64,000 nucleotides of DNA, from NCBI RefSeq assembly GCF_018595675.2, contig NZ_CP092333.1, positions 1,264,001-1,328,000 on the forward strand, written 5' to 3'. The stretch comes from Flavihumibacter fluvii. Lineage in GTDB: Bacteria > Bacteroidota > Bacteroidia > Chitinophagales > Chitinophagaceae. Position numbers and translations under genes: made by a program. Below the pieces are notes generated by a model. That model was not told the DNA's origin. It saw only the letters and a program-made list of their open reading frames with translations, and did not search any database. Every line of letters begins with the position of its first letter. Position 1 is the first letter of the stretch. Shown here piece by piece: positions 3,014 to 33,172 of the stretch.

Positions 3014-3172
3014 TGCCTGGAAAGATGCCAACGGATTACATCTGCACCTCGTTGATTCCTCCGCGTAACCGGTAACCAGCACTTAATGATTCCGGTTATG
3101 CCAGATTGACGGCTAATAGCCGGGCGGTTAACCTGGCAAATTATGGAAGGGTGATGTGTGTCTTTTGAGAGT

Positions 3173-3205
3173 AAATGAAGACCACATGAAGACCATGTGA
3201 AGATT
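3173..3205 (+). repeat. Three tandem 11-bp repeats, core TGAAGACC
   Basis: Three consecutive 11-mers (AAATGAAGACC, ACATGAAGACC, ATGTGAAGATT) share the core TGAAGAyy at exactly one helical turn spacing. Direct repeats with an 11-bp period are the typical layout of binding sites for OmpR/PhoB-type winged-helix regulators. The next annotated gene downstream encodes a phosphoesterase, but it starts 320 bp away, so a regulatory link is only inferred. Confidence 0.5.
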
Positions 3206-3275
3206 TCCCAAATTGGACGTCATCTGCCCGCAAAAAACAGTACATCCAATTTTTGAAAAACTAAAAAATGACAAA

Positions 3276-3410
3276 ATGTCAAACGCGAAGGATAACCTGA
3301 TCACTAGAAACATGAGTGGCTCCCTTGGACAACAGGTCGTTTTTTGTAACGGGGGGCGGGCAGATGACCTGCATTCCGGAAGGTCGGTATCAACTGGTGC
3401 TTCGCCATAA
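3276..3410 (+). CDS. Doubtful 44-residue ORF, possible truncated small-protein remnant
   Basis: An ATG frame encodes a short protein beginning MSNAKDNLITRN, followed by SGSLGQQVVF. This opening pattern (charged start, then SGxLGxxVVF) recalls a family of small Bacteroidota proteins usually over 100 residues long. Here the frame loses that character after about residue 25 and ends at residue 44, so it could be a frameshifted remnant. There is no clear promoter or ribosome-binding site. The family resemblance is from memory only and may be coincidental. Confidence 0.25.
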   Translation: MSNAKDNLITRNMSGSLGQQVVFCNGGRADDLHSGRSVSTGASP

Positions 3411-3524
3411 TGATAAGATAATACTACTATTGTGCTGTTTACAGTCAAATATTTATTCGGTTTAAGCCTACTTTTAAATGACGAATAACCGAATGTTTCA
3501 GCTTCTAATAATAAATATAACCGG

Positions 3525-6500
3525 ATGAAGCGCCATCTTTTAATTGGCTACTTATTGATTTCAGTAAGTGCTTTTACGCAAACCCAACCTGCCTTTGTTG
3601 TTAATGCACATTCTCATAACGATTATGAACAATTGCACCCTTTTGAATCTGCCTATAATGAACAATTCGGCTCAATTGAGGCGGATGTTTTTTTGAAAGA
3701 CGGACAATTGCTTGTTGCCCATGAATGGAATGAACTTAACAAAAATAGAACACTTAAAAGCCTCTACCTAGATAAGCTAAGCAGGAAAATAGCGGAGCAT
3801 AAGGGTTCTGTTTATGCCGATCCAAAGAAGTCCTTGCAACTGTTGATTGATATTAAATCAGCATCAGGGCCTACCCTGGATACTTTAGTTTCCTTATTAC
3901 GATCTTACCCGGCGGTCATCAATAATCCAACTATCCGGATCGTTATCAGTGGCAATAAGCCCGACGAACATTTATATTCAACCTATCCATCCTTTATTCT
4001 TTTTGATGGCAGGCTGGGCGGGGAGTATAGCCCGCAGGCCCTGGATAAAATAGCGCTCCTGAGTGATGATTTCTCTCAATATTCTTCATGGGATGGCAAG
4101 GGTATATTGCCGTATGCAGACAGCCTTAAAATTGCCAGCCTGGTCGGGAAGGCACATGGATTTAAAAAACCAGTTCGCTTCTGGGCCAGTCCGGATTCAC
4201 CAAATTCCTGGAACCAGTTGATCCGATTGGGGGTAGATTATATCAATACAGATCGAATTGGTGAGTTGTCTTCCTTCCTGCAAAACCCGGCAAGGTATTT
4301 CTATGAAGAAAAACTCGATAACCTCAGCCTTCACGATGATACAGTTTCCTTAATGCCCTACAACCGGATCATCCGGTCAGCTGGTTCGGTGATTCGTTTT
4401 GGAGACCCCAACCTGGAAAATCATGCTCTCGATGTGGCCGCTTTACCTGGCGGTAAACATGTTGTGGTTGAAGACAGGTATGGCATTTTTATTCTTGACC
4501 TGGCCCAAAAAAAGATCTTTCAAAGATGGTCTTACAGTGACCAGCCAGGCTACCAATCATATATCAGTACCTACTCTGGAATAAAGGTTTTTAATAGTGG
4601 TGGAAAGACCTGGATTACCTGGGGAGCATCTTCGCACGATAGTGACGCTGCAGTGATGCTTGCGGAATGGACGGATAGCCTGAAAAACATATCAGGGATC
4701 CCGGTAATTAAAAGGGATCCTGCCTCAAATGCTTTACCCAATGAGGTATTGGTTCAAAACGAAGGTGCTGAAACCTTCCTGTATGTGGTCTTAAATGGCA
4801 ATGATCAGCTGTTGAAATTAAGACTGCGGGATAAACAAATCATCTGGCAAAGCAATACGGGTATGGCACCTTATGGCGTCACGATGGCAAACCAGAAAAT
4901 TTACGTTACGAACTGGGCAGGCCCCAGGGCAACCGATAGTACCAGGGAAAGAGCAGGAATTCCCTGGGGAATGGTCTACACTGATCCACGGACGGGTGCA
5001 ACTGCTGCTGGTACTGTTTCCGTCATTGATCCTGCCACCGGCAAACTGTTGAAGGAGATTTCAGTGGGACTTCATCCAAATGCGATAAAAGCCGGGCGAG
5101 GTGGCCGGTTTGTATACGTAAGTAATGGTTCAGATGACAAGGTTTCGGTGATCAATACGCGAAAAGATAAGGTCATTGAAAATATAGGGGTTGGACTAAT
5201 CAAAGGGTCGAAAGCATATACCGGCAGTACTCCCAATGGCCTGGAACTAAGTGCTGATAATACAAATTTGTATGTATCAAACGGCCTGGACAATGCAGTA
5301 GCGGTGGTAAGCCTGGGAAAAAAATCTTCAGTGGCAGGGAAAGGAAAATCTTACATAAAGGGCTTTATCCCAACAGAAGCGTATCCGGCTGGGTTAGTGC
5401 TGGTAAATAATATGCTGGTAGTAACGAATCTTGAGTCGGGTGGGGCTGATGTAATTCAGCCATCGAAGAATGCTCGGTCAATCCACAATCAACTTGGTTC
5501 GGTAAGCCTTATCCCCCTTCCTGATAATAGCCAACTTGAAACCTATACCGGGCAGGTTTTTGAAATGAGCCTTATGGGCCGGGTGGATGCATTTCAACAA
5601 CCGGTTCGCAGCGGAATTGCTCCGGTACCGGTTCCAGCCCGGCTAGGGGAACCCTCTACATTTAAGCACGTTGTTTATATCATCAAGGAAAACAAGACCT
5701 ATGACCAGGTATACGGGGATTTGCCTGCCGGTAGGGGTGATAGTTCCTTGTGTATTTTTGGGAACCTGATTACACCGAATATGCATGCCCTGGCCAAACA
5801 ATATGGCTGGATGGACAATTACTATGCCTCGGGTAAATCTTCTGCTGAAGGACACCAGTGGACTGATGCTGCAATGGTTTCGGATTATGTTGAAAAAAAT
5901 GTGCGCGCCTGGTTCCGAAGTTATCCGCACCGCCAGGAAGATGCACTGGTCTACAATAAAAGTGGTTTTATCTGGAACCAGGCCCTTGATCATGGTAAAT
6001 CGGTGCGGATTTTTGGGGAAGCCTGCAAGACCATTTATGATGAAAAGCTTGGCTGGTCAGATATCTATTCATCCTATAAAGCCGGACATGCCCCTGCCTG
6101 GTATAACACCAGTACCATTGCCCGAATCCGCCCCATCATTTCTCCTTATTACCCCGATTGTGATAATATCGCTTTCAACGATCAGCAGCGTGCCGATGAA
6201 TTTATTAAAGAGTGGAAAGCCTATGAGGCCGGCGACAGTTTACCGAACCTGATGATCCTTTCATTGCCGAATGATCACAGCGCTGGCACGTCCCCGGGAT
6301 TTCCTACACCCAATGCAATGGTAGCTGATAATGACCTTGCTGTTGGTCGGATCGTAGAAGCAATTACTACCAGCAAATATTGGGATTCAACGGTCATATT
6401 TATTACCCAGGATGACTCACAGAGCGGATGGGACCATATATCCGCTTATCGCACTATAGGTTTGGTGATCAGTCCATATAGTACCGGCAAACTTGTTACT

Positions 6501-6830
6501 ACCAACTATAACCAAACCTCCATGCTGCGTACGATTGAACAAATCCTTGGCATCCCACCCATGAATATTATTGATGCTACAGCAAAACCCATGTTCGATT
6601 GCTTTGGTGAAGTAAAAAAAATATCCCGGTATACAAATTTGCCAAATAATATACCACTCGATGAAATGAACAAAGGGCTCAACTCATTAAACGGGAAAGC
6701 CAGGAAGTTCGCACTTCAGTCATTAGATGAAGTATTTAATGAAGTTGATGGTGGACAAGATGATAAAATGAACCGGATATTATGGTTTTACGCGAAAGGC
6801 AATCAACCTTATCCGCTTATCAGGAAGTAA
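3525..6830 (+). CDS. Secreted three-module phosphoesterase: GDPD-like + YncE propeller + alkaline-phosphatase-fold domain
   Basis: The 1101-residue protein starts with a signal peptide (about residues 1-20, ending AFTQTQ). Residues 25-260 form a GDPD/PI-PLC-like domain of the AIM6-related type: HSHNDY at 29-34, IEADVFL near 50 and a following AHEW supply the histidine/acidic active-site pattern. Residues 275-700 look like a YncE/YVTN beta-propeller (for example GRFVYVSNGSDDKVSVI). From about residue 713 comes a PF04185-type phosphoesterase domain with KENKTYDQ, SAEGHQW, LPNDHSAG near 915 and a metal-site QDDSQSGWDH near 961. Propeller-phosphatase proteins are common in Bacteroidota; the extra N-terminal GDPD-like module is unusual. 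It probably acts in the periplasm or outside the cell on phosphate esters. The substrate is unknown. Confidence 0.85.
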   Translation: MKRHLLIGYLLISVSAFTQTQPAFVVNAHSHNDYEQLHPFESAYNEQFGSIEADVFLKDGQLLVAHEWNELNKNRTLKSLYLDKLSRKIAEHKGSVYADPKKSLQLLIDIKSASGPTLDTLVSLLRSYPAVINNPTIRIVISGNKPDEHLYSTYPSFILFDGRLGGEYSPQALDKIALLSDDFSQYSSWDGKGILPYADSLKIASLVGKAHGFKKPVRFWASPDSPNSWNQLIRLGVDYINTDRIGELSSFLQNPARYFYEEKLDNLSLHDDTVSLMPYNRIIRSAGSVIRFGDPNLENHALDVAALPGGKHVVVEDRYGIFILDLAQKKIFQRWSYSDQPGYQSYISTYSGIKVFNSGGKTWITWGASSHDSDAAVMLAEWTDSLKNISGIPVIKRDPASNALPNEVLVQNEGAETFLYVVLNGNDQLLKLRLRDKQIIWQSNTGMAPYGVTMANQKIYVTNWAGPRATDSTRERAGIPWGMVYTDPRTGATAAGTVSVIDPATGKLLKEISVGLHPNAIKAGRGGRFVYVSNGSDDKVSVINTRKDKVIENIGVGLIKGSKAYTGSTPNGLELSADNTNLYVSNGLDNAVAVVSLGKKSSVAGKGKSYIKGFIPTEAYPAGLVLVNNMLVVTNLESGGADVIQPSKNARSIHNQLGSVSLIPLPDNSQLETYTGQVFEMSLMGRVDAFQQPVRSGIAPVPVPARLGEPSTFKHVVYIIKENKTYDQVYGDLPAGRGDSSLCIFGNLITPNMHALAKQYGWMDNYYASGKSSAEGHQWTDAAMVSDYVEKNVRAWFRSYPHRQEDALVYNKSGFIWNQALDHGKSVRIFGEACKTIYDEKLGWSDIYSSYKAGHAPAWYNTSTIARIRPIISPYYPDCDNIAFNDQQRADEFIKEWKAYEAGDSLPNLMILSLPNDHSAGTSPGFPTPNAMVADNDLAVGRIVEAITTSKYWDSTVIFITQDDSQSGWDHISAYRTIGLVISPYSTGKLVTTNYNQTSMLRTIEQILGIPPMNIIDATAKPMFDCFGEVKKISRYTNLPNNIPLDEMNKGLNSLNGKARKFALQSLDEVFNEVDGGQDDKMNRILWFYAKGNQPYPLIRK

Positions 6831-6839
6831 TCATTCCAG

Positions 6840-9353
6840 CTAAGTTTTCCTTGACCGCCAGGCTTGCCAGGCCGTCAGGGCCAGCAGCAGGTAAACCAAT
6901 ATTGCACAAACAGTAGTAATGGTTTTACTGATGGTTACTGATGCAGGTTCAAACCTGAATTCAATCGTATGGTCTCCAGCTGGTATGGCCATGCCACGCA
7001 ACACGTAATCGACCTTTACATAGGGTGCCAGTTTTCCATCGACATAGGCGTTCCATCCTTTGTCGTAATGGATTTCACTAAAGACGGCAAACTGGTTGCT
7101 GGCAGATTTTGTTTTGTAAACGATCTTATCATTGAGGTTCTCTACCCACTGGATACTTGCTGTTGAATCATAAGTGGGGGATTGCCCGCCGATTGAAGCG
7201 TATTTCTGTTGGATGACTGCGATATCCTTAAGGTTAGTGCTATCCAAAGCCTGCATTTCTTCATCAGCATTCTTAACATATTTGATGGATTTCACCAGCC
7301 ATGCTGCGCCAAATGCACCTGTATTAAGCTGTGCCACCGGTTGGTTATTGGCCGGGTTGGTACCGATGAAATACCGTGTATTCAACATATTGAATACATT
7401 CATATTTCCTTTTGATAATTGCTTTTCTATAAGGTCGTTATATAGGCTGAGTTTAGCCGGACTATACCCGCCAACTGAATTGTGGAAATAGGATGCCCTG
7501 GATCCATTGAAAGGCCCCTGGTTGTCAATCTGGTCAAATACCCGGAAAGGTTTATTGGTATCTTTTAAAATTTCCAGGTCAGCAGCTGTGGGTTGGAAAG
7601 AATTTTCAAATGCTTCCTTTTCTACATAATTTTCGGCATTCAGGTACCTGGCTGCCACGCCAATAAGGTCAAAAGAACTGGCCACCAATACCCCTGCCAA
7701 CAATACCTGCTGCGTGATTTTATCTTTCAGGTATGCGCCTATCAATACTACAGCAATGGCAATTAATAAAAAACTCCTGAGCAGGTCGCTGGTAAATAAT
7801 CCCTGCCTGTCGTCCTGCAAACTTCTCACAACAGTCTGGCCAAAAGCAGCAGCTTGTTGCTGGATTTGCGGGGTTACGTTGCCCTGGGCGCCATTTAACA
7901 TCATACCCGATAATTGTTCCTTCAATGCGGCATCATTCGGTCCTGCAAAATCTGCCGTCAGGTAAAAAGCAAGCAGTAAGGCAAATACACCACCAGTAAT
8001 ATAAACAGCAGTTTTGAATTTTTTCCAGGCTAACTCTTTTGGCATTTTTGCAGCTATCAATTCCTGTAATCCAAGTGCCGCCATTAAAGGGAACAACAAT
8101 TGCGGAATGACAAGGGCCATGGAAGGCGCCCGGAATTTATTATACAAGGGGAGATAATCGAAAATAAAATAATTGAGTGAGGAGAAGTTTTTGCCCCAGG
8201 ATAAAAATATCGCAAATATCACGGCTGCTACTATCCACCATTTGTGCCAGCTCCTGGTAAAAACCAATGCTACTATAAAAAGGAAGCAGATGATGGACCC
8301 CAGGTAAACCGGACCAGCATGGCCGGGTTGGTTGCCCCAATAGGCGTAGCTGTTTGCAAACTGGATAGCACTTTCTTCAGGAACACCTGCTTCTGTTAGT
8401 TTTTCCGCAAAGGCCGATTTGCCTGGCTTAAATGCCCTGCCAGCGCTTCCGCCACCATAGATGCCAGGTGTAAATATTGAAAAGGTCTCCGCTATGCCAT
8501 AACTACCGTAAAAAAAGGCATAATCTTTATTCAATCCACCTTTCGACTTATTAGTACTGTCAGAAAGGGTAAGTTCTGATTTACCACCGCGCATGGACTC
8601 ATGCGAATATTCCTGCAGCGGAAGCCAGGTTACTGCATAGGTACCCAGGCCAACCAGGGCTGCAACGAGGGCCACTCCTAAAGCTGGAAATATTTCCCGT
8701 AATTGTTTTTCACGGACACTATTCACCAAATAGGCAATGGTGATCAGTGCCATAATAATACTGGTATAATACACTACCTGAACGTGTTGTGTACTGATCT
8801 GAAGCCCAAAGAACAAAGCCAGTAGTGCAGCACCCGCCAAATATTTGCGTTGATATATGAGGATAAGTGATCCAATTACCGCAGGGGCATAAGCTATGGC
8901 CATCATCTGTGTATTATGGCCCACTGCTATGATGATGGGGTCGAATGTGGCATACGCATAGGCAATTGCCGCCATTGCACTGATATAAGGATTGATCCTG
9001 AAGACCAGGCACATAAAATAAAAAGCTAAACAAGCCAGGAAGAAAAAACTGATGGGAACAGGTAATCCAAGCGTAATAATTGGTTGCAGTATAATGGTTT
9101 GGATAGCCGGGCCATCATAGGCAATGGTATATGCAGGCATTCCGCTAAATAAACTATTCGTCCATAAAGGGAAATGCCCATATTTTTCCTTGAATTCAAA
9201 GGATTGCTGGGCCATTCCTTTCCAACCGATAATATCGTGCTGCTCCAAAACTTTGCCCTGGATTGCTGGCTGGCAATAAATAACGGCGATCAGCAGAAAC
9301 AGGACAATTGCAAGAATATGGGGGATTGCGGTTTTAAACCAGGTTGATTTCAT
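6840..9353 (-). CDS. YfhO family multi-spanning membrane protein
   Basis: The 837-residue product has about a dozen hydrophobic segments (first at residues 8-28, last near the C-terminus) and large extracytoplasmic loops. It matches YfhO, a GT-C-like family linked to glycosylation of cell-wall polymers such as lipoteichoic acid in Firmicutes. QDIIGWKGMAQ-like and LWTNSLFSGMPAY segments near the N-terminus are characteristic of Bacteroidota members. The start was moved to the ATG at 9353 (MKSTWFKTA), because the 19 extra residues of the longest frame are not family-like. It follows a GT2 gene on the same strand, so both may serve surface glycan assembly. The donor is probably a polyprenyl-linked sugar, by family inference. 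Confidence 0.85.
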   Translation of the reverse strand: MKSTWFKTAIPHILAIVLFLLIAVIYCQPAIQGKVLEQHDIIGWKGMAQQSFEFKEKYGHFPLWTNSLFSGMPAYTIAYDGPAIQTIILQPIITLGLPVPISFFFLACLAFYFMCLVFRINPYISAMAAIAYAYATFDPIIIAVGHNTQMMAIAYAPAVIGSLILIYQRKYLAGAALLALFFGLQISTQHVQVVYYTSIIMALITIAYLVNSVREKQLREIFPALGVALVAALVGLGTYAVTWLPLQEYSHESMRGGKSELTLSDSTNKSKGGLNKDYAFFYGSYGIAETFSIFTPGIYGGGSAGRAFKPGKSAFAEKLTEAGVPEESAIQFANSYAYWGNQPGHAGPVYLGSIICFLFIVALVFTRSWHKWWIVAAVIFAIFLSWGKNFSSLNYFIFDYLPLYNKFRAPSMALVIPQLLFPLMAALGLQELIAAKMPKELAWKKFKTAVYITGGVFALLLAFYLTADFAGPNDAALKEQLSGMMLNGAQGNVTPQIQQQAAAFGQTVVRSLQDDRQGLFTSDLLRSFLLIAIAVVLIGAYLKDKITQQVLLAGVLVASSFDLIGVAARYLNAENYVEKEAFENSFQPTAADLEILKDTNKPFRVFDQIDNQGPFNGSRASYFHNSVGGYSPAKLSLYNDLIEKQLSKGNMNVFNMLNTRYFIGTNPANNQPVAQLNTGAFGAAWLVKSIKYVKNADEEMQALDSTNLKDIAVIQQKYASIGGQSPTYDSTASIQWVENLNDKIVYKTKSASNQFAVFSEIHYDKGWNAYVDGKLAPYVKVDYVLRGMAIPAGDHTIEFRFEPASVTISKTITTVCAILVYLLLALTAWQAWRSRKT

Positions 9354-9413
9354 GCCGTTATGCGGTTTTGGCCGGCAAAATAATACATATTTTGCTACCG
9401 GGAACGCCAATGG

Positions 9414-10331
9414 TCAGAACCATAAACGCGCCTGGACCTGCTTTAAATAAGCGCTGCTGGTATTTTTAATAGGTCTGCGCAGTTTTGTAAAGGGAATTTT
9501 AACCACTGCTATCCAGCCTTTTAAAAATCCCGGGAGGTCAAACCGCGAATTTCTAAGGTAAAATGCTGACCAGCCCAAAGCCGTCGTAAAAAAATATAGC
9601 AGGGGTAGGTAAGTCCAGGCAACCACCGATTTATTGACCCACATCATGCGCAGCTTTTCTGCCTTTGGTGCTCTGCCCAAAGGTGATTCCTTGTGAAAGA
9701 CTTCAACCGAAGCATCATACCCTATGGCATAACCTGCATCCAGTACCCTGTAACTCTGGTCATATTCTTCCATTCCGTAAAAGAAATCTTCCGGATAATT
9801 TCCAGCTTCCAGCCAGCATTTCCTTAAAAAAGCATGGGCACAGCCAATATAATACCCGGTCAGGAACCAGGGCGCATCCTTGAACTGTTCGTAACGCTTA
9901 TGCGGGAATGCATTTACCTGTACTTCCCTGTTTTCGGTATACCTGACTTTACAACTGATCACCCCTAATCGTCTGTCGATTCCCGTTGACCTCGAAAATG
10001 CCCTCACAATTCCAGGCAATATTTCGGGGTCCTCCAAAACTATATCATCATCCAAAAAAAAGAAGATATCACCAGTAGCCATAGCCGCAGCATAATTACG
10101 CCCCTTCGAAACACCCAGGTTTTCTGGTGCCTCTATATACTTTACACGGGTTTGAGGATGCTGGTTGATAAAAGCAACAACAGGCGCATAATCACTGGTG
10201 GAAGCATTGTTCAGTAAAATTACTTCCTTCAGGATGTCCATTTTATGATGCAAATGTTCAATGGTCTGGAGTAACTCAAGGGTATCCCCGGGCCTGTTAT
10301 AGGTAATAATTATTATACTGATATCCTGCAT
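9414..10331 (-). CDS. Glycosyltransferase family 2
   Basis: The 305-residue GT2 protein begins with ISIIIITYNRPGDTLELL and has NNAST near 41. NLGVSKGRNYA follows at 71-81, and the metal-binding FFFLDDD motif has its aspartates at 94-96. The acceptor-domain stretch FFYGMEEYDQSYR around residue 190 carries the usual acidic pair. It lies about 60 bp upstream of the YfhO gene and is co-oriented, so a joint role in a surface glycan is plausible. Divergent transcription of the small membrane protein gene starts 33 bp away. Confidence 0.87.
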   Translation of the reverse strand: MQDISIIIITYNRPGDTLELLQTIEHLHHKMDILKEVILLNNASTSDYAPVVAFINQHPQTRVKYIEAPENLGVSKGRNYAAAMATGDIFFFLDDDIVLEDPEILPGIVRAFSRSTGIDRRLGVISCKVRYTENREVQVNAFPHKRYEQFKDAPWFLTGYYIGCAHAFLRKCWLEAGNYPEDFFYGMEEYDQSYRVLDAGYAIGYDASVEVFHKESPLGRAPKAEKLRMMWVNKSVVAWTYLPLLYFFTTALGWSAFYLRNSRFDLPGFLKGWIAVVKIPFTKLRRPIKNTSSAYLKQVQARLWF

Positions 10332-10364
10332 TGCTTGGCAAAATAAACTGATTTTTACACCAGT

Positions 10365-10670
10365 ATGAATTTTTCAGTACTTAATAAACTGGCTTTTATT
10401 GCCAACCTGGCATTTATCCTTGCCCTAATGATGCGATTCTTCCCGGTTGCGCAGGGAACCAGGGTAGAATCCATGATCCTGGTAACCGGACTGGTAATTT
10501 CTCCTTTGGTTAACCTTGTTGTAAACTTTTACAATGCTTTCCTGTTTTTCAAAGGCACAAGGCCCTTTTCTCATTTTGTTCAGGTTTTTAATGCTTCTGT
10601 CTTCGGATGTCAAATCATCATATATTTATTCTTTTCCGGTTGGCTACCTTTAAATAATATCATTTCATGA
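10365..10670 (+). CDS. Small membrane protein, unknown function
   Basis: The 101-residue protein is almost entirely hydrophobic with three likely membrane segments (about residues 8-28, 37-62 and 75-95) and short charged loops. I do not recognise a named family. Its stop overlaps the start of the next gene in the sequence ATGA, so it is very likely translated together with the queuosine-precursor transporter. That makes it a candidate accessory subunit or simply a co-expressed membrane protein. Both the clean overlap and the divergent neighbour support it as a real gene. Confidence 0.75.
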   Translation: MNFSVLNKLAFIANLAFILALMMRFFPVAQGTRVESMILVTGLVISPLVNLVVNFYNAFLFFKGTRPFSHFVQVFNASVFGCQIIIYLFFSGWLPLNNIIS

Positions 10671-11452
10671 TTCATAATATCATTAGAGACAAGCCTACCC
10701 GCTTATTTATATTCTTAGGCGGATTTTTTATTGCCAATGCTGTTATAGCAGAAATCATTGGTGTAAAAATATTTTCACTGGAAGATACCTTTGGATTTAC
10801 AAAAGCCAGTTTTACTTTGCTGGGCGAATCCGGATTATCGTTCGATCTTACGGTTGGCGTTTTGCCCTGGCCTATCGTATTTATTATGACTGATATCATT
10901 AATGAGTATTATGGGGTGCGTGGCGTACGGTTCCTTTCTGTTCTTACTGCTGCTTTGATTGCTTTTGCATTCATCGTATTTTATTTTTCAATACATACCA
11001 GCGCCGCCGGCTGGTGGCGTGAATCACAGGTGGCTAATGGCGTTCCTGATATGCAGGCCGCCTATTCCCAGATACTGGGGCAGGGGATGAATATTATTTT
11101 TGCTTCACTTACTGCATTCCTGGTTGGCCAGTTAACAGATGCCCTGGTATTTAAGAAAATCAAGCAATTTACCGGTGAAAAAAGAATCTGGATGCGCGCA
11201 ACCGTATCCACCTTATTTTCCCAGTTGGTCGATACTATCGTGGTCTCTTACGTATATCTCTATTTTTCATTGGGGTTTTCATTTCCAAGGGTAACCGCAA
11301 TTGCAATGGTTGGCTATACTTATAAGTTTACTATAGCTATATTGTGTACACCCCTTATTTACCTGATTCATGCAGTTATTGAAAAATACCTGGGCCGGGA
11401 GCAAGCGGCAAACATGAAAAAATCAGCCATGGAAATGCAAAAGATTAGTTAA
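10667..11452 (+). CDS. Queuosine precursor transporter (VUT/YhhQ family)
   Basis: The 261-residue protein has six or so membrane segments and the signature features of the VUT/YhhQ family: FIANAVIAEIIGVKIF at the first helix, DIINEYYGVRGVRFL near residue 75, and SQLVDTIVVSYVY near 185. E. coli YhhQ imports 7-cyano- and 7-aminomethyl-7-deazaguanine for tRNA queuosine synthesis. The Bacteroidota version is usually somewhat longer than E. coli's, as here. It is coupled to the upstream small membrane protein by an ATGA overlap. No preQ1 riboswitch was seen upstream, and no queuosine enzyme gene lies nearby, so the substrate rests on family membership. Confidence 0.88.
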   Translation: MIHNIIRDKPTRLFIFLGGFFIANAVIAEIIGVKIFSLEDTFGFTKASFTLLGESGLSFDLTVGVLPWPIVFIMTDIINEYYGVRGVRFLSVLTAALIAFAFIVFYFSIHTSAAGWWRESQVANGVPDMQAAYSQILGQGMNIIFASLTAFLVGQLTDALVFKKIKQFTGEKRIWMRATVSTLFSQLVDTIVVSYVYLYFSLGFSFPRVTAIAMVGYTYKFTIAILCTPLIYLIHAVIEKYLGREQAANMKKSAMEMQKIS

Positions 11453-11520
11453 ACCGAATTTTAGGATTAAACTTTTGAGTCGCTGGTTTCTCTTACAAAT
11501 GGCAACATAAATGCCGTCGT

Positions 11521-13608
11521 ATGAAGAATTCATCTAACCGGATCTTTTCCTTCTTTATCCTGTTCCTTGTAAACGCACCGGTATTTGCCCAAAGTTGGCC
11601 TGTTACAGTAATCATGGAGAACGACCAGGTAGTTAAAATGTATGCACCCCAAATTAGTGCCTATGCAAACGACCAATTAGTGTTCAGGTCTGCAGTTTCT
11701 TTGCAAAAAAAAGGGGATGATGACCCCGTTTTTGGAATGGTCTGGGCGAAAGCCCAAACCCGGCAGTCGGGCAACTTTGACCGTATTGAGATGCAGTCAA
11801 TCGCTATTACTGATATCCGGTTTCCATCATCTGTAAATTCCAAAACTTCAAAGACCATTGAATCCCGGCTTGAATTGAAAGTTCCGGACCTGGCTCCACC
11901 CGTATCAAAAAAAGAGATTAATGATGCAGTGAAACTGGACAAGGATAAACTAACCCTGGACCAGGGCTTTTCCAATAAGGCTCCCAGGGTCATTTATCGC
12001 AATAGTCCATCCATGCTGGTATTGATTGATGGGGATCCTGTTTGGCAAAGAAATGAGGAATGGGGTGTTGAGGCTGTGGTGAATTCACCTAATACGATCG
12101 TCAGGAATGGAGATGGCAATTATTATATTTATGGTGCCCATCGCTGGTTCAGTGCAGCCAGCCTTGGTGGGCCATATAACGCTGTATTATCAACGCCAGG
12201 CGATTTCCGGAAAATTGAATCTGCCCTTGCTGCAGCCGACAAGTCCAGCAATTCCTTTGATGCTGATTACGCCGATAACGCTTCCCATTCAACTGTTTCT
12301 GAGATTATCGTGAGTACTGAACCCGCTGAATTGATCCAGAGTGATGGTGAAGCCACCTTCAGTCCAATTGCAAATACCAGCCTGATGTATGTGGATAATT
12401 CACCAAATGATATTTTCATGGATGTAAATTCCCAGCAATATTTCATTTTATTATCCGGGAGGTGGTACGTAGCAAAAACACTAAAAGGTAACTGGACCAA
12501 TATAGGGGCGGACCAATTACCGGAAGATTTTGCCAATATCCCTGCAGGGTCGGAAAAGGATAATGTCCTGGCCAGCGTTGCCGGGACGCCTGCTGCGAAA
12601 AATGCATTGCTGGATGCCCAGGTACCGCAAACGGCAAGGGTTAACCGCAATTCTGCCTCGGCTACCGTGAACTATGATGGCGACCCTGAATTCGAGGATA
12701 TTACAGGTACTCGGTTGGCATATGCCCGTAACACATCGTCTCCTGTGATCAGGTACAACAGGCGATATTTCATGGTAGATAATGGGATATGGTTTCAGTC
12801 ATCTTCGCCAGCGGGTCCCTGGATAGCCAGCAACTACCGTCCGGATGACATCGACCTGATTCCCCCAAGTTACCCGGTGTATAATGTTAAATATGTTTAC
12901 ATCTATGATGTAACCCCTGAATATATTTATACAGGATATACTCCGGGTTACCTGAATACCTATATATATGGTCCAACCATTGTATATGGCACCGGATACT
13001 ACTATCGTCCATGGCATCGCCGTTATTATTATCCGAGGCCATATACCTGGGGATTCAATATGCATTATACCCCGTGGACGGGCTGGTCATTTGGTTTTAA
13101 TTTTTATGGTGGATGGTTTTATGGTGGGTATTATGGTTATAATGGCTGGAATAACTGGGGTGGCGGATGGTGGGGGCCAACCAGGTATCGTCCATCTTAT
13201 TGTGGCCCATCATACCGTAATAATGGCTATTATGGTCTTCGGAACAATCACTTTTATGTAAATGACAGAAGCAGGTACTATGCGCCCCGCAATTATTATG
13301 GAAATGTGTACAGTGAAAGGAGGGATGTAGTAACCAGGGATCGGATAGCCAATTCTCGTCCGGGTTCGGTTCCAAATAACAGGAATAATCCATCTCCACC
13401 CAATACAAGACCTGATTCAAGAACATACCCATCGCGGGAATACCGTCCACAACCGGATTACAGGCCTGCAGAACGTAGCCGTCCGGAAAACAGACCACAA
13501 AACCGGGTGGAGAGAAATCCGAACGGACAAAGACATGCGCCGCAAAGGATGGAAAGGAATGAAAGGAATGAAAGGCCATCCATTAACAACAGGCGGGTAG
13601 GTGGTTAA
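11521..13608 (+). CDS. Exported aromatic/Gly-rich protein, unknown function
   Basis: The 695-residue product has a clear signal peptide (MKNSSNRIFSFFILF..., cleavage after VFAQS). Residues 25-480 contain repeated short motifs (for example SPSMLVLIDGDP, NTSLMYVDNSPN, NGDGNYYIYGAHRWF and RYFMVDNGIWFQSSSPAGPW), indicating tandem beta modules in which a YYxxxxGxWF-type strand recurs. About 480-570 is extremely rich in Tyr, Trp, Gly and Arg, and the tail (570-695) is Pro/Arg/Asn-rich and basic. Similar proteins in Bacteroidota carry labels such as carbohydrate-binding, without experimental support. The last codons overlap the convergent GNAT gene by 4 bp, both stops lying in TTAA. The function is not known; cell-surface or periplasmic location is likely. 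Confidence 0.8.
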   Translation: MKNSSNRIFSFFILFLVNAPVFAQSWPVTVIMENDQVVKMYAPQISAYANDQLVFRSAVSLQKKGDDDPVFGMVWAKAQTRQSGNFDRIEMQSIAITDIRFPSSVNSKTSKTIESRLELKVPDLAPPVSKKEINDAVKLDKDKLTLDQGFSNKAPRVIYRNSPSMLVLIDGDPVWQRNEEWGVEAVVNSPNTIVRNGDGNYYIYGAHRWFSAASLGGPYNAVLSTPGDFRKIESALAAADKSSNSFDADYADNASHSTVSEIIVSTEPAELIQSDGEATFSPIANTSLMYVDNSPNDIFMDVNSQQYFILLSGRWYVAKTLKGNWTNIGADQLPEDFANIPAGSEKDNVLASVAGTPAAKNALLDAQVPQTARVNRNSASATVNYDGDPEFEDITGTRLAYARNTSSPVIRYNRRYFMVDNGIWFQSSSPAGPWIASNYRPDDIDLIPPSYPVYNVKYVYIYDVTPEYIYTGYTPGYLNTYIYGPTIVYGTGYYYRPWHRRYYYPRPYTWGFNMHYTPWTGWSFGFNFYGGWFYGGYYGYNGWNNWGGGWWGPTRYRPSYCGPSYRNNGYYGLRNNHFYVNDRSRYYAPRNYYGNVYSERRDVVTRDRIANSRPGSVPNNRNNPSPPNTRPDSRTYPSREYRPQPDYRPAERSRPENRPQNRVERNPNGQRHAPQRMERNERNERPSINNRRVGG

Positions 13609-14105
13609 ACATCCTTGCCCATTACGTAATCATCCATGACATACCCATGTCCAATATCGATCACTTGTTCCTTTTCAATGCTGAATCCCAATGATTCATA
13701 AAAGTGGATAGCGGGATTATTTTTGTTTACATTCAGGACAAGGTGCGCACCGTTATGGGTGCGGACTTCTTCTTCAACCATATCCACCAAGGCTCTTCCA
13801 ATACCCTTTCCCTGCAAACCAGGCAATACATACAGTTTATGCAATTTCCAGGTAGCATCATTGATGGCACTAAAAGAAGCGAATCCAACTTCTTCCAGAT
13901 CTATTTCCGCAATAATAAACCGATGGTCAGATTCCAGTATCTGGTGTTCAAGAGCAGCAGGACTGTAAAAAAGTTGCAGCATATATTCCAGCTGTTCCGG
14001 AGATAAGATATCCTGGTAGGCACTTGGCCATATCTGGTGGGCGAGATAGCCAATGGTGGAAATATCATCCTGGTCAGCGGTTCTGATCACTAAAGCTTCA
14101 CTCAT
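13605..14105 (-). CDS. GNAT family N-acetyltransferase
   Basis: The 166-residue protein has the GNAT core. An N-terminal strand and helices (IRTADQDDISTI) lead to the strand LHKLYVLP, followed by the acetyl-CoA pyrophosphate-binding loop LQGKGIGRALV (about 97-107), then VLNVNKNNPAIHFYESLGF near 125, the conserved C-terminal Asn/Tyr region. Acetyl-CoA is the expected donor, and the acceptor cannot be inferred. It is followed by no close gene on its strand and lies 3 bp downstream of the PrsW gene, which suggests co-transcription. Confidence 0.88.
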   Translation of the reverse strand: MSEALVIRTADQDDISTIGYLAHQIWPSAYQDILSPEQLEYMLQLFYSPAALEHQILESDHRFIIAEIDLEEVGFASFSAINDATWKLHKLYVLPGLQGKGIGRALVDMVEEEVRTHNGAHLVLNVNKNNPAIHFYESLGFSIEKEQVIDIGHGYVMDDYVMGKDV

Positions 14106-14108
14106 AAA

Positions 14109-14840
14109 TTATGTGACAGGGTTATCTTTTGAAATAAAACTATTTTTCGATATGGACTGGTGCATCTTAATGGCTTGCCAGGATAACTTTACAGCAACAA
14201 GATAAGATAATATGGCACTGCCAATTAAAAATCCGCCTGGTATCTGTTTGGTGATGCCGGGGTCACCCTGGACGAATAAAAACAGATCAAAAAGGCCATG
14301 GAACAATATGGCCAGCAGCAATCCGCGTATTATATAAAAATCGGACTGTGCATTATGTGTGAACTTTGCCAGGCCTACATAATATCCCATTAACACACCA
14401 AAGGTAGCATGAGCAGGTACGGATAAAAACATCCTGGCAAATGCTGTTCCAATTCCACCTGTCATGACGTATGAAATATTTTCTAAAGTCGCAAACCCCA
14501 TGGCCACCATCACGCCATAAATGATACCGTCAAAAGGCTCATTAAAAAAAATCCTTGGATATGCATAAAGCCGCAACATGGCAAATTTGCTTAATTCTTC
14601 TGTTAAGGCAACAACGCCAAAGGCAAACAAGATAAAATAGGTCCATCCGCTTGCTGGCATGATCCATTTTAATAAGTAAGATCCGGCCAGTTGTAAAAGA
14701 ATGGCCGGTAATGTTGCCAGCATACCCAGGAAAAAAGATTTAACCAACGCTTTTAATGGCTCCCTGTCAAAGCGATCTTTTGAATAAATGAACCACATTA
14801 TCGCTATGCCTGGCGCCAACGCTAAAGCAAGAAGTTCCAT
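14109..14840 (-). CDS. PrsW family intramembrane metalloprotease
   Basis: The 243-residue protein has about seven membrane segments and the catalytic signatures of PrsW-type (CAAX-protease-related) enzymes: EELSK at 81-85 for zinc/catalysis, a later PAHATFGVLMGYY and HGLFDLFLF. In Bacillus subtilis PrsW cleaves the anti-sigma factor RsiW, releasing an ECF sigma factor; the target here is unknown. The N-terminal MELLALALAPGIAIMWFIYSKDRFDREP is typical of the family and supports the start at 14840. It is probably co-transcribed with the downstream GNAT gene. Confidence 0.88.
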   Translation of the reverse strand: MELLALALAPGIAIMWFIYSKDRFDREPLKALVKSFFLGMLATLPAILLQLAGSYLLKWIMPASGWTYFILFAFGVVALTEELSKFAMLRLYAYPRIFFNEPFDGIIYGVMVAMGFATLENISYVMTGGIGTAFARMFLSVPAHATFGVLMGYYVGLAKFTHNAQSDFYIIRGLLLAILFHGLFDLFLFVQGDPGITKQIPGGFLIGSAILSYLVAVKLSWQAIKMHQSISKNSFISKDNPVT

Positions 14841-14844
14841 GGTA

Positions 14845-14852
14845 TATCTTTG
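14845..14852 (+). promoter_or_regulatory. Bacteroidota -7 element TATCTTTG
   Basis: An exact match to TAnnTTTG in the 57-bp gap between the divergent PrsW gene and the gluzincin-like gene. It would give a leader of about 40 nt before the ATG at 14898. Confidence 0.55.
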
Positions 14853-14897
14853 TAGTCCTGAAATTAGTGAATTAATATTGTCCCAGAATTTCCATAC

Positions 14898-17729
14898 ATG
14901 CCTAATCGCTTTGCATTCTTCCTGTTATTTCTATTACCCCTCACCGGATTTTCCCAAATATTTGGTGGCAACCCAGCCAAAACAAGATGGAGTTATTTTA
15001 CGGATCAACAGGCAACCCTCATATACCCAAAAGGAGCAGACAGTTCCGCTAACCGGATTGCCCAATTAATTTCCCGCATTAATGCCAGAACCGACAGTAG
15101 CATTGGTGTGAAAAGAAGGCCCATTTCCATCATAATTCAAACTGGCACTACCAGGTCAAATGGTTATGTTGCCTTAGCACCTTACCGGAGTGAATTTTAC
15201 CTTACGCCACCAGCCAACCCTTTTAGTTTGGGGGCACTTGATTGGGTTGATCAGTTAGCCTTGCATGAGTACCGGCATGTACAGCAGTATAGTAATTTCA
15301 ACCTGGGCGGCGCAAAAATATTTAAATTTCTATTGGGAGAGCAAGGGCAGGCATTGGCAAATGCATTAACGGTTCCGGACTGGTTTTTTGAAGGCGATGC
15401 TGTTTTCCAGGAAACACAATTCAGCCACCAGGGCCGGGGCAGGACGCCTTCTTTTTTTAATGGTTACCGGGCACTCTGGGATGCCGGGATTGACTATTCT
15501 TTTATGAAACTCCGGAATGGGTCCCTTAAACATTTTGTGCCCGATCATTACGAATTGGGATACCAACTGGTTGCTTATGGTCGTGATACTTATGGCACTG
15601 CTTTCTGGAAGAATACGACCAGCAAAGCGGCCGCTATGAAAGGCTTGGTGTATCCCTTGCAAAAAGCAGTAAAACAAGAAACAGGGTTGTCTTATCCGGC
15701 TTTTATTGAGCAGGCTTTAGCAAATAGCCGGAAACGCATCGGAAGGGAATCCGCGAAGGTGCATCAAAAGCCTCCGGTAGTAGTGAATACGGAAAATACG
15801 GTGTTTACTGAACAAGGCGATTTGGTTTATCTGAAAAGCAGCTACAGGAAAATACCTTCCTTTTTCATCCAAAAAGATGGTGTGGAACAAAAGATCCGGA
15901 CAAAAGACCAATCACTGGATCACTATTTTGGGTATGCGAAAAATAAAATAGTTTATGCTTCTTACCGGCCTGATATCCGCTGGGGCTGGATAGATTACAG
16001 CGAATTGCAATTGTTGGACGTCAGAACGGGCCAACAAAAAAGAATCAGTCACAAATCACGGTATTTTTCCCCATCCCTTTCAGTTAATGCAGATAGTATT
16101 GTAGCGGTCCATATTCCTGTAAATGGACAGCAGCGGCTTGAACTGTTGCTGCAGGATGGGCATAAAATTGTTTCAATTCCCAATATTGGGAATTTTAGTT
16201 TTTTCCATCCTGTTTTCTGGAAGGATAAAATCCTGGTGGTGGCAAAAAATGATCGGGCCAGGATGAATCTATTGTTGGTGGATATACCCAACGGTGGATT
16301 TACCAGCCTGCTACCATGGACAGAAAATGTCCTTGGTTTTCCAACTGCTAAAGGTGATACCATATATTTCACCATGTCATACAAGGAAAAAGACAGGATC
16401 ATGGCTTTTGATGCCGGATCACAGAACTTGTATTTGCTGCAGTCAGGCAGCGACAGTGCATACACGGGCCTTTACCAACCAGCCGTTTTCGGGAAGGAGA
16501 TCGTGCAAACAAGATTTACTGCAGCCGGATACTCGTTTCGAAAGGAAACCGTTGACAGGGAAAACTGGTTGCCAGTAAATGACCTATCTGTTGACACTGC
16601 ATCAAATTTCCAGGTACATTCCCTAAATGACCCGGTCAATGCATTAACTGAAAATAATGACCATAAACCATACATCATCCACAAGTACAGGAAAACTACC
16701 AGGTTTTTCAATTTTCACAGTTGGCAGCCATATTATGAAGACCCGGAATTCAGTTTTAGTCTCTTTGGCCAGAATGTGTTGAATACATTTCAAAGCCAGC
16801 TTTACTTTAAGTATAACCGGAATGAAGGATTTAAACAATTGGGTTATACGGGTATTTTTGGCGGGTTTTTTCCTTTGCTGAAGGGTGACTTGAATTATAC
16901 GCTGGACCGCCGTGGCATCTTCGAAAACAGGACCATTTACTGGGACCAGTTTCAATCAAGCCTTGGATTTACTATCCCTTTAAATTTGAGCAAAGGAAGA
17001 AGCATATCCTTTCTTCAGGCTGGATCAGACCTTGTATTTAATCAGGATAATTTTAAAGAACCTGAACGGTCCAAGCTTGGAACCAGGTCTTACTGGTATT
17101 TTGACCATGATATCCGTTTTAGCCACCAGGTTCAACAAGCACGGCAGGAATTTAATCCACGTTTTGCGCAGACCCTCCACCTGAATTTCAGGCAGGCGAT
17201 CAGCCAATTTGATGCTCGCCAATTCATGGAAACATCTGACCTGTATTTCCCGGGATTCTTCCTTAACCATAGTTTTGTCGTCAACCTGGCTGCTCAGCAG
17301 CGGGATTCCAGCAAGGGACTGCGTTTTACCAATGATTTTCCATTCGCCCGGGGATATAGTTCTGAAAATTTTTACCGGGTAATAAAATGGGGCATAAATT
17401 ACCAGTTACCCATAATATACCCGGATTACGGCGCCTGGAATATTGTGTATCTCCTGCGGGTCAGGACGAATTTCTTTTATGACCAGGCCATGGTAAAAGA
17501 CCAGCAATTGCTGCCTGGTGTTACCCAAAAAATGTTCAGATCAGTGGGAAATGAATTATTTTTTGATACGAAATGGTGGAACCAGCTTCCGGTTAATTTT
17601 GGCATACGGTATGCCAGATTATTAGATGAAGATATTTTCGGAGGGAGTGGTAAAAATCGATGGCAATTTATTTTGCCTGTAAGTCTTATTCCTGCCGGAA
17701 TTAACGCAAAGCGGTCATTGGGTTTTTAG
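14898..17729 (+). CDS. Gluzincin-like peptidase fused to outer-membrane beta-barrel
   Basis: The 943-residue protein has a signal peptide (cleavage near GFSQ, residue 20). A zinc-metalloprotease HExxH motif, HEYRH, lies at residues 123-127, with a downstream glutamate in DWFFEGDA (E165), the arrangement of gluzincins (peptidase MA-like). Residues 290-570 look like WD40/TolB-like repeats. From about 620 the sequence turns into alternating amphipathic strands rich in Tyr, Phe and Gln, ending in a terminal Phe (RSLGF), as expected for an outer-membrane beta-barrel. The barrel ends in the region of the convergent PAP2 gene (29-bp overlap). Function is unknown; it is probably an outer-membrane peptidase or an inactive scaffold. 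Confidence 0.8.
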   Translation: MPNRFAFFLLFLLPLTGFSQIFGGNPAKTRWSYFTDQQATLIYPKGADSSANRIAQLISRINARTDSSIGVKRRPISIIIQTGTTRSNGYVALAPYRSEFYLTPPANPFSLGALDWVDQLALHEYRHVQQYSNFNLGGAKIFKFLLGEQGQALANALTVPDWFFEGDAVFQETQFSHQGRGRTPSFFNGYRALWDAGIDYSFMKLRNGSLKHFVPDHYELGYQLVAYGRDTYGTAFWKNTTSKAAAMKGLVYPLQKAVKQETGLSYPAFIEQALANSRKRIGRESAKVHQKPPVVVNTENTVFTEQGDLVYLKSSYRKIPSFFIQKDGVEQKIRTKDQSLDHYFGYAKNKIVYASYRPDIRWGWIDYSELQLLDVRTGQQKRISHKSRYFSPSLSVNADSIVAVHIPVNGQQRLELLLQDGHKIVSIPNIGNFSFFHPVFWKDKILVVAKNDRARMNLLLVDIPNGGFTSLLPWTENVLGFPTAKGDTIYFTMSYKEKDRIMAFDAGSQNLYLLQSGSDSAYTGLYQPAVFGKEIVQTRFTAAGYSFRKETVDRENWLPVNDLSVDTASNFQVHSLNDPVNALTENNDHKPYIIHKYRKTTRFFNFHSWQPYYEDPEFSFSLFGQNVLNTFQSQLYFKYNRNEGFKQLGYTGIFGGFFPLLKGDLNYTLDRRGIFENRTIYWDQFQSSLGFTIPLNLSKGRSISFLQAGSDLVFNQDNFKEPERSKLGTRSYWYFDHDIRFSHQVQQARQEFNPRFAQTLHLNFRQAISQFDARQFMETSDLYFPGFFLNHSFVVNLAAQQRDSSKGLRFTNDFPFARGYSSENFYRVIKWGINYQLPIIYPDYGAWNIVYLLRVRTNFFYDQAMVKDQQLLPGVTQKMFRSVGNELFFDTKWWNQLPVNFGIRYARLLDEDIFGGSGKNRWQFILPVSLIPAGINAKRSLGF

Positions 17730-18342
17730 TCGTGTGTTTTCTCCTGATCCATTCATTTGCTTTATACGTCAGCCAGGCGCTGCCAACACCTACTACCGCC
17801 CCGGCCAATATATCACTCGGGTAATGAACGCCCAGATCCATCCTGGAGTAACTTACCAATCCTGCCCATGTAAATGCAGGAACTCCGATATACCATTTCG
17901 GCCAGGCCATATATAAAGCAGTTGCTGTTGAAAAAGCCAATGATGTATGACCTGATGGAAATGAGGGACTTCCACCGGTACTGGCGGCGGCAATTTCTCC
18001 AGGATATTGGGCGGCCGGCCTCGGCCTGTTGATGCTGTATTTTAAGCCCCATGTAATAACACTGGATACCGCAATGCTTTCCCCAATGTATAATGCCTTT
18101 TGAACCATCGGTTTATCACCTTTGATCTCGCCCGCAATCAATAAAACAGCCGGAATGAAAGCACTAATTGCCCCTGTTGAATTGGATACAGCCTGAAAAA
18201 ATTTGGTTTGTCCATTGGTGCGGTCTTCAGATAATTCAATAAGCGTCGATTTATCCAAACCCGTGATTTGGGCGTAGGCCGAGTAATTAAGTATGATTAA
18301 ACAGGCTATAAAGGGTACCGGAATGCCAAATATTCGAAACAT
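17701..18342 (-). CDS. PAP2 family phosphatase
   Basis: The 213-residue protein has a signal or first membrane helix and the three PAP2 signatures: KYSINRPRPA, PSFPSGHTSLAF and SRMDLGVHYPSDILAG, containing the conserved Arg, the catalytic Ser-Gly-His and the final His-Asp. Family members dephosphorylate lipid phosphates such as phosphatidic acid or undecaprenyl pyrophosphate. It overlaps the convergent upstream neighbour at its 3' end by 29 bp. It could recycle polyprenyl carriers, but the substrate is not evident. The start at 18342 gives a good hydrophobic N-terminus. Confidence 0.9.
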   Translation of the reverse strand: MFRIFGIPVPFIACLIILNYSAYAQITGLDKSTLIELSEDRTNGQTKFFQAVSNSTGAISAFIPAVLLIAGEIKGDKPMVQKALYIGESIAVSSVITWGLKYSINRPRPAAQYPGEIAAASTGGSPSFPSGHTSLAFSTATALYMAWPKWYIGVPAFTWAGLVSYSRMDLGVHYPSDILAGAVVGVGSAWLTYKANEWIRRKHTTKNPMTALR

Positions 18343-18412
18343 GCCAGAAAACTACCTAATAAATAGCATTCATACCTGTTTTGAAGCCGATTTTCACCTG
18401 TTTAACGAGCAG

Positions 18413-33047: not shown

Positions 33048-33172
33048 AGATAAGCATTGAAATAAGGGAGGTCCAAAAAGGGATAATAAATAACCGTATT
33101 CAGCAGGGATACCAATCCTTATAAATATATCGCTTCTCTTTGAATAGTAAAAATATTGCCTGTATTTTTTGC

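Follow-up and report, generated by a model that had tools for sequence, protein, structure and literature searches.

In Flavobacterium johnsoniae, the alkaline phosphatase PhoA1 (Fjoh_3249, with pf00245 and pf13653 domains) is induced by phosphate starvation and is encoded beside PusCD2 in the PUSII locus, and a wider substrate range that includes diesters was suggested for it by its authors (PMC8115612, in part). Phosphomonoesterase activity was restored by both PhoA1 and PhoA2 of this species (PMC8812569, in part); PF13653 was placed on Fjoh_3249 in PMC8115612 (2020) and on Fjoh_3187 in Table 1 of PMC8812569 (2022), and the 2020 version is followed here. Among proteins of the PF04185 type, active-site residues have been given for the acid phosphatase AcpA (E43, N44, S175, D386 and D387) and for SapM (E59, N60, S95, D238 and E239) (PMC6635428, in part), and a plant PF04185-type phospholipase C has been described (PMC9837106, in part). 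Here we report on a gene of Flavihumibacter fluvii (Chitinophagaceae), located at 3525-6830 on the + strand of a 64,000-nucleotide window (contig NZ_CP092333.1, positions 1,264,001 to 1,328,000), whose product joins a domain resembling glycerophosphodiester phosphodiesterases (GDPD), a YncE-type beta-propeller and a PF04185 phosphoesterase domain in one chain. We favour, with moderate confidence, the reading that this protein is a bifunctional enzyme for phosphorus scavenging, exported and most likely periplasmic, which would convert a diester to a monoester and then to phosphate.

Architecture of the three-module protein

The gene consists of a single intact open reading frame with an ATG start, 1101 codons and no internal stops, and along the chain the signal peptide is followed by the GDPD-like barrel (approximately residues 21-254), the propeller (approximately 284-669) and the PF04185 domain (approximately 690-1101). 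The features, all on the + strand, are as follows:

3525..3584, +: signal peptide, residues 1-20, without a lipobox cysteine (assigned by eye)
3585..4286, +: GDPD-like TIM-barrel domain, residues 21-254 (PF13653; 'AIM6-type' in a first-pass annotation; from Pfam, fold and conserved residues)
4287..4373, +: linker, residues 255-283, the proposed fusion joint, similar at its end to the mature N-terminus of the two-module protein of locus L072
4374..5531, +: YncE-type beta-propeller, residues 284-669 (from an NCBIfam YVTN repeat and a fold match)
5592..6827, +: PF04185 phosphoesterase domain of the AcpA / phospholipase C superfamily, residues 690-1101 (from Pfam and profile)
5688..5693, +: E722-N723, proposed metal ligands corresponding to E43-N44 of AcpA, in 46 of 46 rows (profile alignment with AcpA)
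5841..5843, +: S773, proposed nucleophile corresponding to S175 of AcpA and S95 of SapM, in 46 of 46 rows, within a loop (770-777) of pLDDT below 50
6411..6416, +: D963-D964, aligned to D386-D387 of AcpA, in 46 of 46 rows (profile alignment)
6828..6830, +: stop codon (from the reading frame)

Residue conservation was counted over 46 aligned three-module rows, of which 41 are distinct and one is the window protein itself; identity to the window protein was 51-65%, and because of these rows chance read-through was ruled out as an explanation of the frame. The first-pass annotation, made from the sequence alone, had read the protein as three modules in one uninterrupted frame, with a GDPD-like N-terminus and a C-terminus of phosphatase fold, and the matches to PF13653, TIGR02276 and PF04185 described below bear out all three assignments. 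The AlphaFold2 model of the full chain, built from an alignment of 103 sequences, had a mean predicted local distance difference test score (pLDDT) of 85.8 and a predicted template modelling score (pTM) of 0.78, with low-confidence stretches at residues 15-20, 260-271 (pLDDT below 50, within the linker), 770-777, 782-784 and 967-974 and at the final three residues.

A parallel fusion of the same domain to PhoA

The best functional evidence is, in our view, an analogy. Proteins of about 610 amino acids in relatives carry the same GDPD domain at the head and a PF00245 alkaline phosphatase (PhoA) as the remainder; PF00245 was found in all five such proteins that were scanned with Pfam (E 1.3e-49 or better), and BLAST of the fetched loci, which include some duplicates, gave a PhoA match in 44 of 44 GDPD frames of 450-700 amino acids and in none of the 27 frames of up to 450 amino acids. 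PF00245 was not among the Pfam matches of the window protein at E up to 1. On a tree of GDPD domains (113 rows, 108 different), PhoA-fused and stand-alone domains were interleaved. Two of the GDPD-PhoA fusions were viewed in context (L115 and L118), and each stood last in a row of genes for a sigma-70-type factor, FecR, a TonB-dependent receptor and SusD.

Among the matches listed, GDPD-PhoA-sized frames (judged by frame length) occurred in about 58 of 394 family genomes and in none of the eight three-module genomes. Zero of eight would be expected in about 28% of cases and is not significant, and the idea that the two fusions exclude each other was rejected. Also among the matches listed, G026:C49:30886-31587 and six further GDPD matches in frames of fewer than 300 amino acids run over one in-frame stop, and these stand-alone genes might be what is left of GDPD-PhoA fusions.

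The C-terminal phosphoesterase domain

The PF04185 match (E 1.8e-12, 47.6 bits against a cut-off of 23) was strongest over residues 894-1011, and a profile of the domain found AcpA (2d1g) as the best match (E 1.4e-13), followed by the phospholipases C 8yk5 (1.6e-5) and 9gy2 (1.7e-4). In the profile alignment E722-N723 fell on the E-N pair of AcpA and D963-D964 on its D-D pair. Residues E722, N723, S773, H777, D917, H918, D963, D964 and H971 were kept in all 46 rows, and all of these except D917 were also invariant in a 36-row alignment that included distant paralogues. S773 is a candidate nucleophile, and the conserved histidines may take part in catalysis.

A rival reading, which we consider rather unlikely, makes the PF04185 domain a phospholipase C-type or phosphonate-ester diesterase, so that the two catalytic modules would act on different substrates or on opposite sides of the phosphate, and not in series. 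The family does span phospholipases C besides AcpA, as the two lower-ranking profile matches illustrate, but the E-value for AcpA was better by eight orders of magnitude, and the partner of the GDPD domain in the parallel fusion, PhoA, is a monoesterase family. The phosphonate version draws on a pair of distant paralogues that this genome also encodes (L116, G000:C1:4192000-4211900), where tandem propeller-PF04185 genes (8361-11081 and 11069-13519) follow a SusC/SusD pair inside a phosphonate cluster, with PhnA- (partial), PhnY- and PhnW-type genes upstream and, downstream, genes for a Phn-HD oxygenase-like protein (just below cut-off), a PhnX-like hydrolase (below cut-off) and a TIGR03364 oxidoreductase. 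This arrangement hints at phosphonate esters as substrates of some members; however, among 59 genomes searched, phnW was present in only two (G000 and G013) of the five that hold a close paralogue, and a phosphonate substrate was therefore kept as a lead only.

Separately, in L120 (G022, 7943-18935) a distant propeller-PF04185 gene lies beside a gene whose product, a TIGR03364-like oxidoreductase, shares 30% identity with the one in L116; the SusC/SusD pair of this locus is 53% and 47% identical to the pair of the L116 phosphonate cluster.

The N-terminal GDPD-like domain

In the whole protein, PF13653 (GDPD_2) matched residues 216-243 (E 2e-9, 38.0 bits against a cut-off of 27), and the first 271 amino acids alone gave E 3.9e-10; the classic GDPD family PF03009 stayed below its gathering score with the domain alone (17.2 against 23.6 bits). 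The domain was modelled separately (pLDDT 93.4) because the fold search with the full chain returned only propellers among the matches listed. At the top of both structure lists stood the GDPD 3no3 (Z 16.1 and root-mean-square deviation 2.8 over 194 residues; E 1.5e-6 in Foldseek), with a spider phospholipase D nearly level in second place of the Foldseek list (E 1.7e-6). Matches within one Z unit count as tied with 3no3, and these included further GDPDs, a beta-1,3(4)-glucanase entry matched through its barrel (7ww4, Z 15.9) and the bacterial phosphatidylinositol-specific phospholipase C (PI-PLC) 5fyr (Z 15.4). The single domain sequence had no match in the PDB, and GDPDs were reached only with a profile, whose significant matches were GDPDs (3no3, E 0.0018; 9f49, E 0.0063).

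Residues marked in the domain are H29-S-H31-N-D, E52-x-D54, H66, D109-x-K111, R218-x-W220 and N241-x-D243, and they include the GDPD motif set, two catalytic histidines (H31 and H66) and E-x-D metal ligands (E52 and D54). Conservation was complete (46 of 46 rows) for H29, H31, N32, D33, E52, D54, D109, K111, R218, N241 and D243, while H66 was kept in 44 rows and W220 in 40.

In an alternative that we regard as unlikely, the domain would be either a lyase resembling PI-PLC or phospholipase D / sphingomyelinase D, yielding cyclic phosphates, or a binding domain, and no simple two-step route to phosphate would be left. The case for this alternative comes from the fold, as spider phospholipases D held Foldseek ranks 2, 3 and 6 and, together with an Arcanobacterium phospholipase D, scored Z 12.9-14.2, with the PI-PLC 5fyr tied with the GDPDs; the D109-x-K111 pair may also be reminiscent of the phospholipase D group. 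Against this, GDPDs topped both structure lists, if narrowly, PF13653 scored above its cut-off, the significant profile matches were GDPDs, and the invariant catalytic residues speak against a pure binding role.

Distribution and origin of the fusion

Relatives confirmed by scanning contigs of public genomes numbered 131, of which the best 80 were kept; these loci were picked by similarity to the window protein, and fractions among them are not frequencies. Complete three-module frames numbered 39 of these 80, and the others comprised four GDPD-bearing frames ended by a contig edge, 29 two-module proteins (propeller and PF04185), six loci where the contig stops too early to tell, and two broken three-module copies (L066, with a frame change, and L061, with a stop). 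In genome samples that overlap one another, the architecture was present in six of 294 Chitinophagaceae genomes (two candidates scored per genome), in at least eight of 394 Chitinophagaceae genomes (frame length over 1000 amino acids) and in three of 395 genomes of the phylum (E up to 1e-20), all three of them Chitinophagaceae. The combination is not unique but restricted, a clade-wide trait inside one family and no one-off. In one three-module locus (L085), a second GDPD-like frame (9053-9550, 166 amino acids, ended by the contig edge) lies 229 bases 3' of the complete gene. The diverged three-module protein of L070 (5962-9222), identical to that of L125, has glutamine at the position of H66 and may have lost GDPD activity.

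On a tree of the propeller and phosphoesterase domains (97 rows, GDPD domain left out), all 43 three-module rows sat in one clade of 49 (Shimodaira-Hasegawa-like approximate likelihood ratio test, SH-aLRT, 100), whose other six members were L072, a true two-module protein, and five rows with undetermined architecture; the sister of the three-module clade was a clade of two-module proteins, and one change was counted when the undetermined rows were set aside. No GDPD match was found upstream of L072 in the 600 bases that its contig holds, and this protein is either a pre-fusion sister or a secondary loss. On the GDPD-domain tree, 45 of the 46 three-module domains formed one clade (support 98) together with the long-branched stand-alone domain of L026. 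The trees fit what was apparently one fusion event in Chitinophagaceae. By eye, the window linker resembles the mature N-terminus of L072, and the joint therefore probably lies directly after the former signal peptide; an upstream GDPD gene would have been joined in frame to a propeller-phosphatase gene at this junction.

An unfused version of the gene pair was found in L100, where the halves of the window protein are separate genes on the same strand (GDPD, 5791-6759; two-module, 6898-9603) with five stop codons between them, preceded by a gene of the endonuclease/exonuclease/phosphatase family and followed by genes for a sodium:solute symporter and a GH92 protein. As one of 29 two-module loci, this adjacency is suggestive only. 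A fused open frame of 1271 amino acids at the two-module match of G302 was rejected, since L100, the same locus, shows the five stops between the genes.

A neutral fusion, in which adjacent genes were joined by chance and kept by descent with the modules in unrelated jobs, would fit the single origin and the lack of a generally conserved operon but is improbable, given that the same GDPD family has been joined to another class of phosphatase, that 41 distinct sequences, 51-65% identical to the window protein, retain the fusion and both active sites, and that the unfused pair is adjacent in L100.

Export, linker and propeller

A lipobox-like pattern occurred in only two of 47 three-module frames (duplicates included), and no Pfam match to a type IX C-terminal sorting domain (PF18962/PF13585) was found in the window protein at E up to 1. 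Because the N-terminus resembles a signal peptide without a lipobox and a type IX sorting domain was not matched in Pfam, the protein is most likely exported to the periplasm rather than to the extracellular space; the earlier description of it as secreted would stand for export and not for release from the cell. Elsewhere in the window, at 29202-36643 (-), two adjoining long genes, for a reprolysin-like metallopeptidase with Ig-like domains and for a PKD protein, both matched type IX sorting domains (PF18962/PF13585).

The propeller was recognised by the YVTN repeat TIGR02276 (NCBIfam, E 9.9e-13, above cut-off), while Pfam propeller families matched below threshold only. Residues 284-669 of the full-chain model scored Z 33.3 with Lp49 (3bws) and Z 32.4 with E. 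coli YncE (3vgz; root-mean-square deviation 2.6, 299 of 321 residues, 16% identity), and unrelated WD40 propellers scored almost equally (Z about 31). YncE-like propellers are seven-bladed. The cut-off of the NCBIfam YncE equivalog NF052280 was missed (23.8 against 400 bits).

Genomic context

When the genes around 70 loci were clustered, 41 of them three-module loci with the window counted in, no general partner gene emerged, and the nearest neighbours were diverse. SusC-like receptor genes flanked 11 of 41 three-module loci and six of 29 two-module loci, bare counts that are not taken as support; in at least eight three-module loci the SusC-like gene was next door, mostly divergent. Pfam assigned ten nearest neighbours to eight TonB-dependent receptors, one PhoD-like phosphatase (L069) and one metalloenzyme-superfamily protein (L064). 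In the window, promoter and terminator scans gave no excess over shuffles, Rfam matched three tRNAs only, none of them near the gene, and the 511-base gap 5' of the gene (3014-3524) held no Rfam match and no convincing promoter.

Proposed function

In the bifunctional reading that we favour, the GDPD-like barrel would first release an alcohol from a glycerophosphodiester-like or other small alkyl phosphodiester, leaving a phosphomonoester from which the PF04185 domain would then remove the phosphate by an alkaline-phosphatase-type serine/metal mechanism (S773, E722/N723, D963/D964 and the histidines); the propeller would lie between the two active sites as a spacer or as a platform for binding. 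The division of labour into two steps is backed by GDPD-PhoA, an independent fusion of the same domain. That the diesterase would come first follows from the chemistry of the two families; the products of a phospholipase C would make poor substrates for a GDPD. Removal of a headgroup followed by phosphate, as proposed in the first-pass annotation, is made plausible by the same fusion; for the teichoic-like polymers that it named as substrate no evidence was found (none was searched for specifically), and phosphatidic acid as preferred substrate was unsupported.

Several observations weigh against the bifunctional reading. The choice between monoesterase and phospholipase C is left undecided by NCBIfam, where the domain fell far below both the subfamily cut-off of the Burkholderia-type acid phosphatases (TIGR03397, 33.9 against 362.75 bits) and the equivalog cut-off of phosphocholine-specific phospholipase C (TIGR03396, 30.9 against 580.25 bits), and the GDPD fold is common to PI-PLC and to sphingomyelinase/phospholipase D enzymes at the Z-scores given above. 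One lineage (L070, the same as L125) lacks H66. The window's own GDPD domain branches near the three-module clade and not firmly inside it, and a long branch outside this clade carries the GDPD half of the broken copy L061. There is no generally conserved neighbour, and the neighbours in the window are glycosyltransferase-2 genes and a gene for a YfhO-type membrane protein. Replacement of GDPD-PhoA by the three-module fusion is likewise unsupported by the counts in the eight genomes.

A more specific proposal, possible but tentative, is that the chain forms a diester-to-phosphate pipeline convergent with GDPD-PhoA, in which Bacteroidota have tethered the same PF13653-type diesterase at least twice to different branches of the alkaline phosphatase superfamily, with the monoester intermediate channelled or held by the propeller on its way from one active site to the other. 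Phosphodiesters make up a large share of organic phosphorus in soil and water. If the repeated tethering of diesterase and phosphatase is real, these bacteria would take phosphate from diesters in one complex, and the fusion would provide a genomic marker for diester use and would give a role to some of the propeller-PF04185 proteins, a large family that has been little studied.

Comparison with known systems

A literature search returned no paper that joins GDPD, alkaline phosphatase, fusion and Bacteroidetes, or PF13653 and PF04185, which does not imply absence from print; the one paper found to mention YncE together with alkaline phosphatase family proteins deals with a different topic. The fold lists of the N-terminal domain are headed by Parabacteroides GDPD BDI_0402 (3no3), tied with several others, although that protein is stand-alone and 20% identical across the aligned residues, and the propeller shares its fold with E. 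coli YncE, likewise a stand-alone protein. The two-module propeller-PF04185 proteins of Bacteroidota, presumably those named 'bifunctional YncE family protein/alkaline phosphatase family protein' by NCBI, align with the window protein over approximately residues 260-1097 but lack the GDPD domain. The PF04185-type serine phosphatases Francisella AcpA (2d1g) and Mycobacterium SapM have counterparts of their E-N, S, D-D/E and H residues in the window domain (from the part of PMC6635428 cited above), whereas they lack both propeller and GDPD, and their similarity to it in sequence is weak.

The nearest parallel in organisation is F. johnsoniae PhoA1, in which, as far as the cited parts of its papers describe it, a single periplasmic chain unites PF13653 with a domain of the alkaline phosphatase superfamily, much as is proposed for the window protein; the likeness is one of domain assignments. 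PhoA1 differs in that its phosphatase is PhoA (PF00245), without a propeller, and is encoded in a phosphate-regulated SusCD locus, whereas the window gene combines PF04185 with a propeller and has no SusCD-type neighbours. The window fusion would be a second case, put together independently, of a design already known from GDPD-PhoA, the joining of diesterase and phosphatase.

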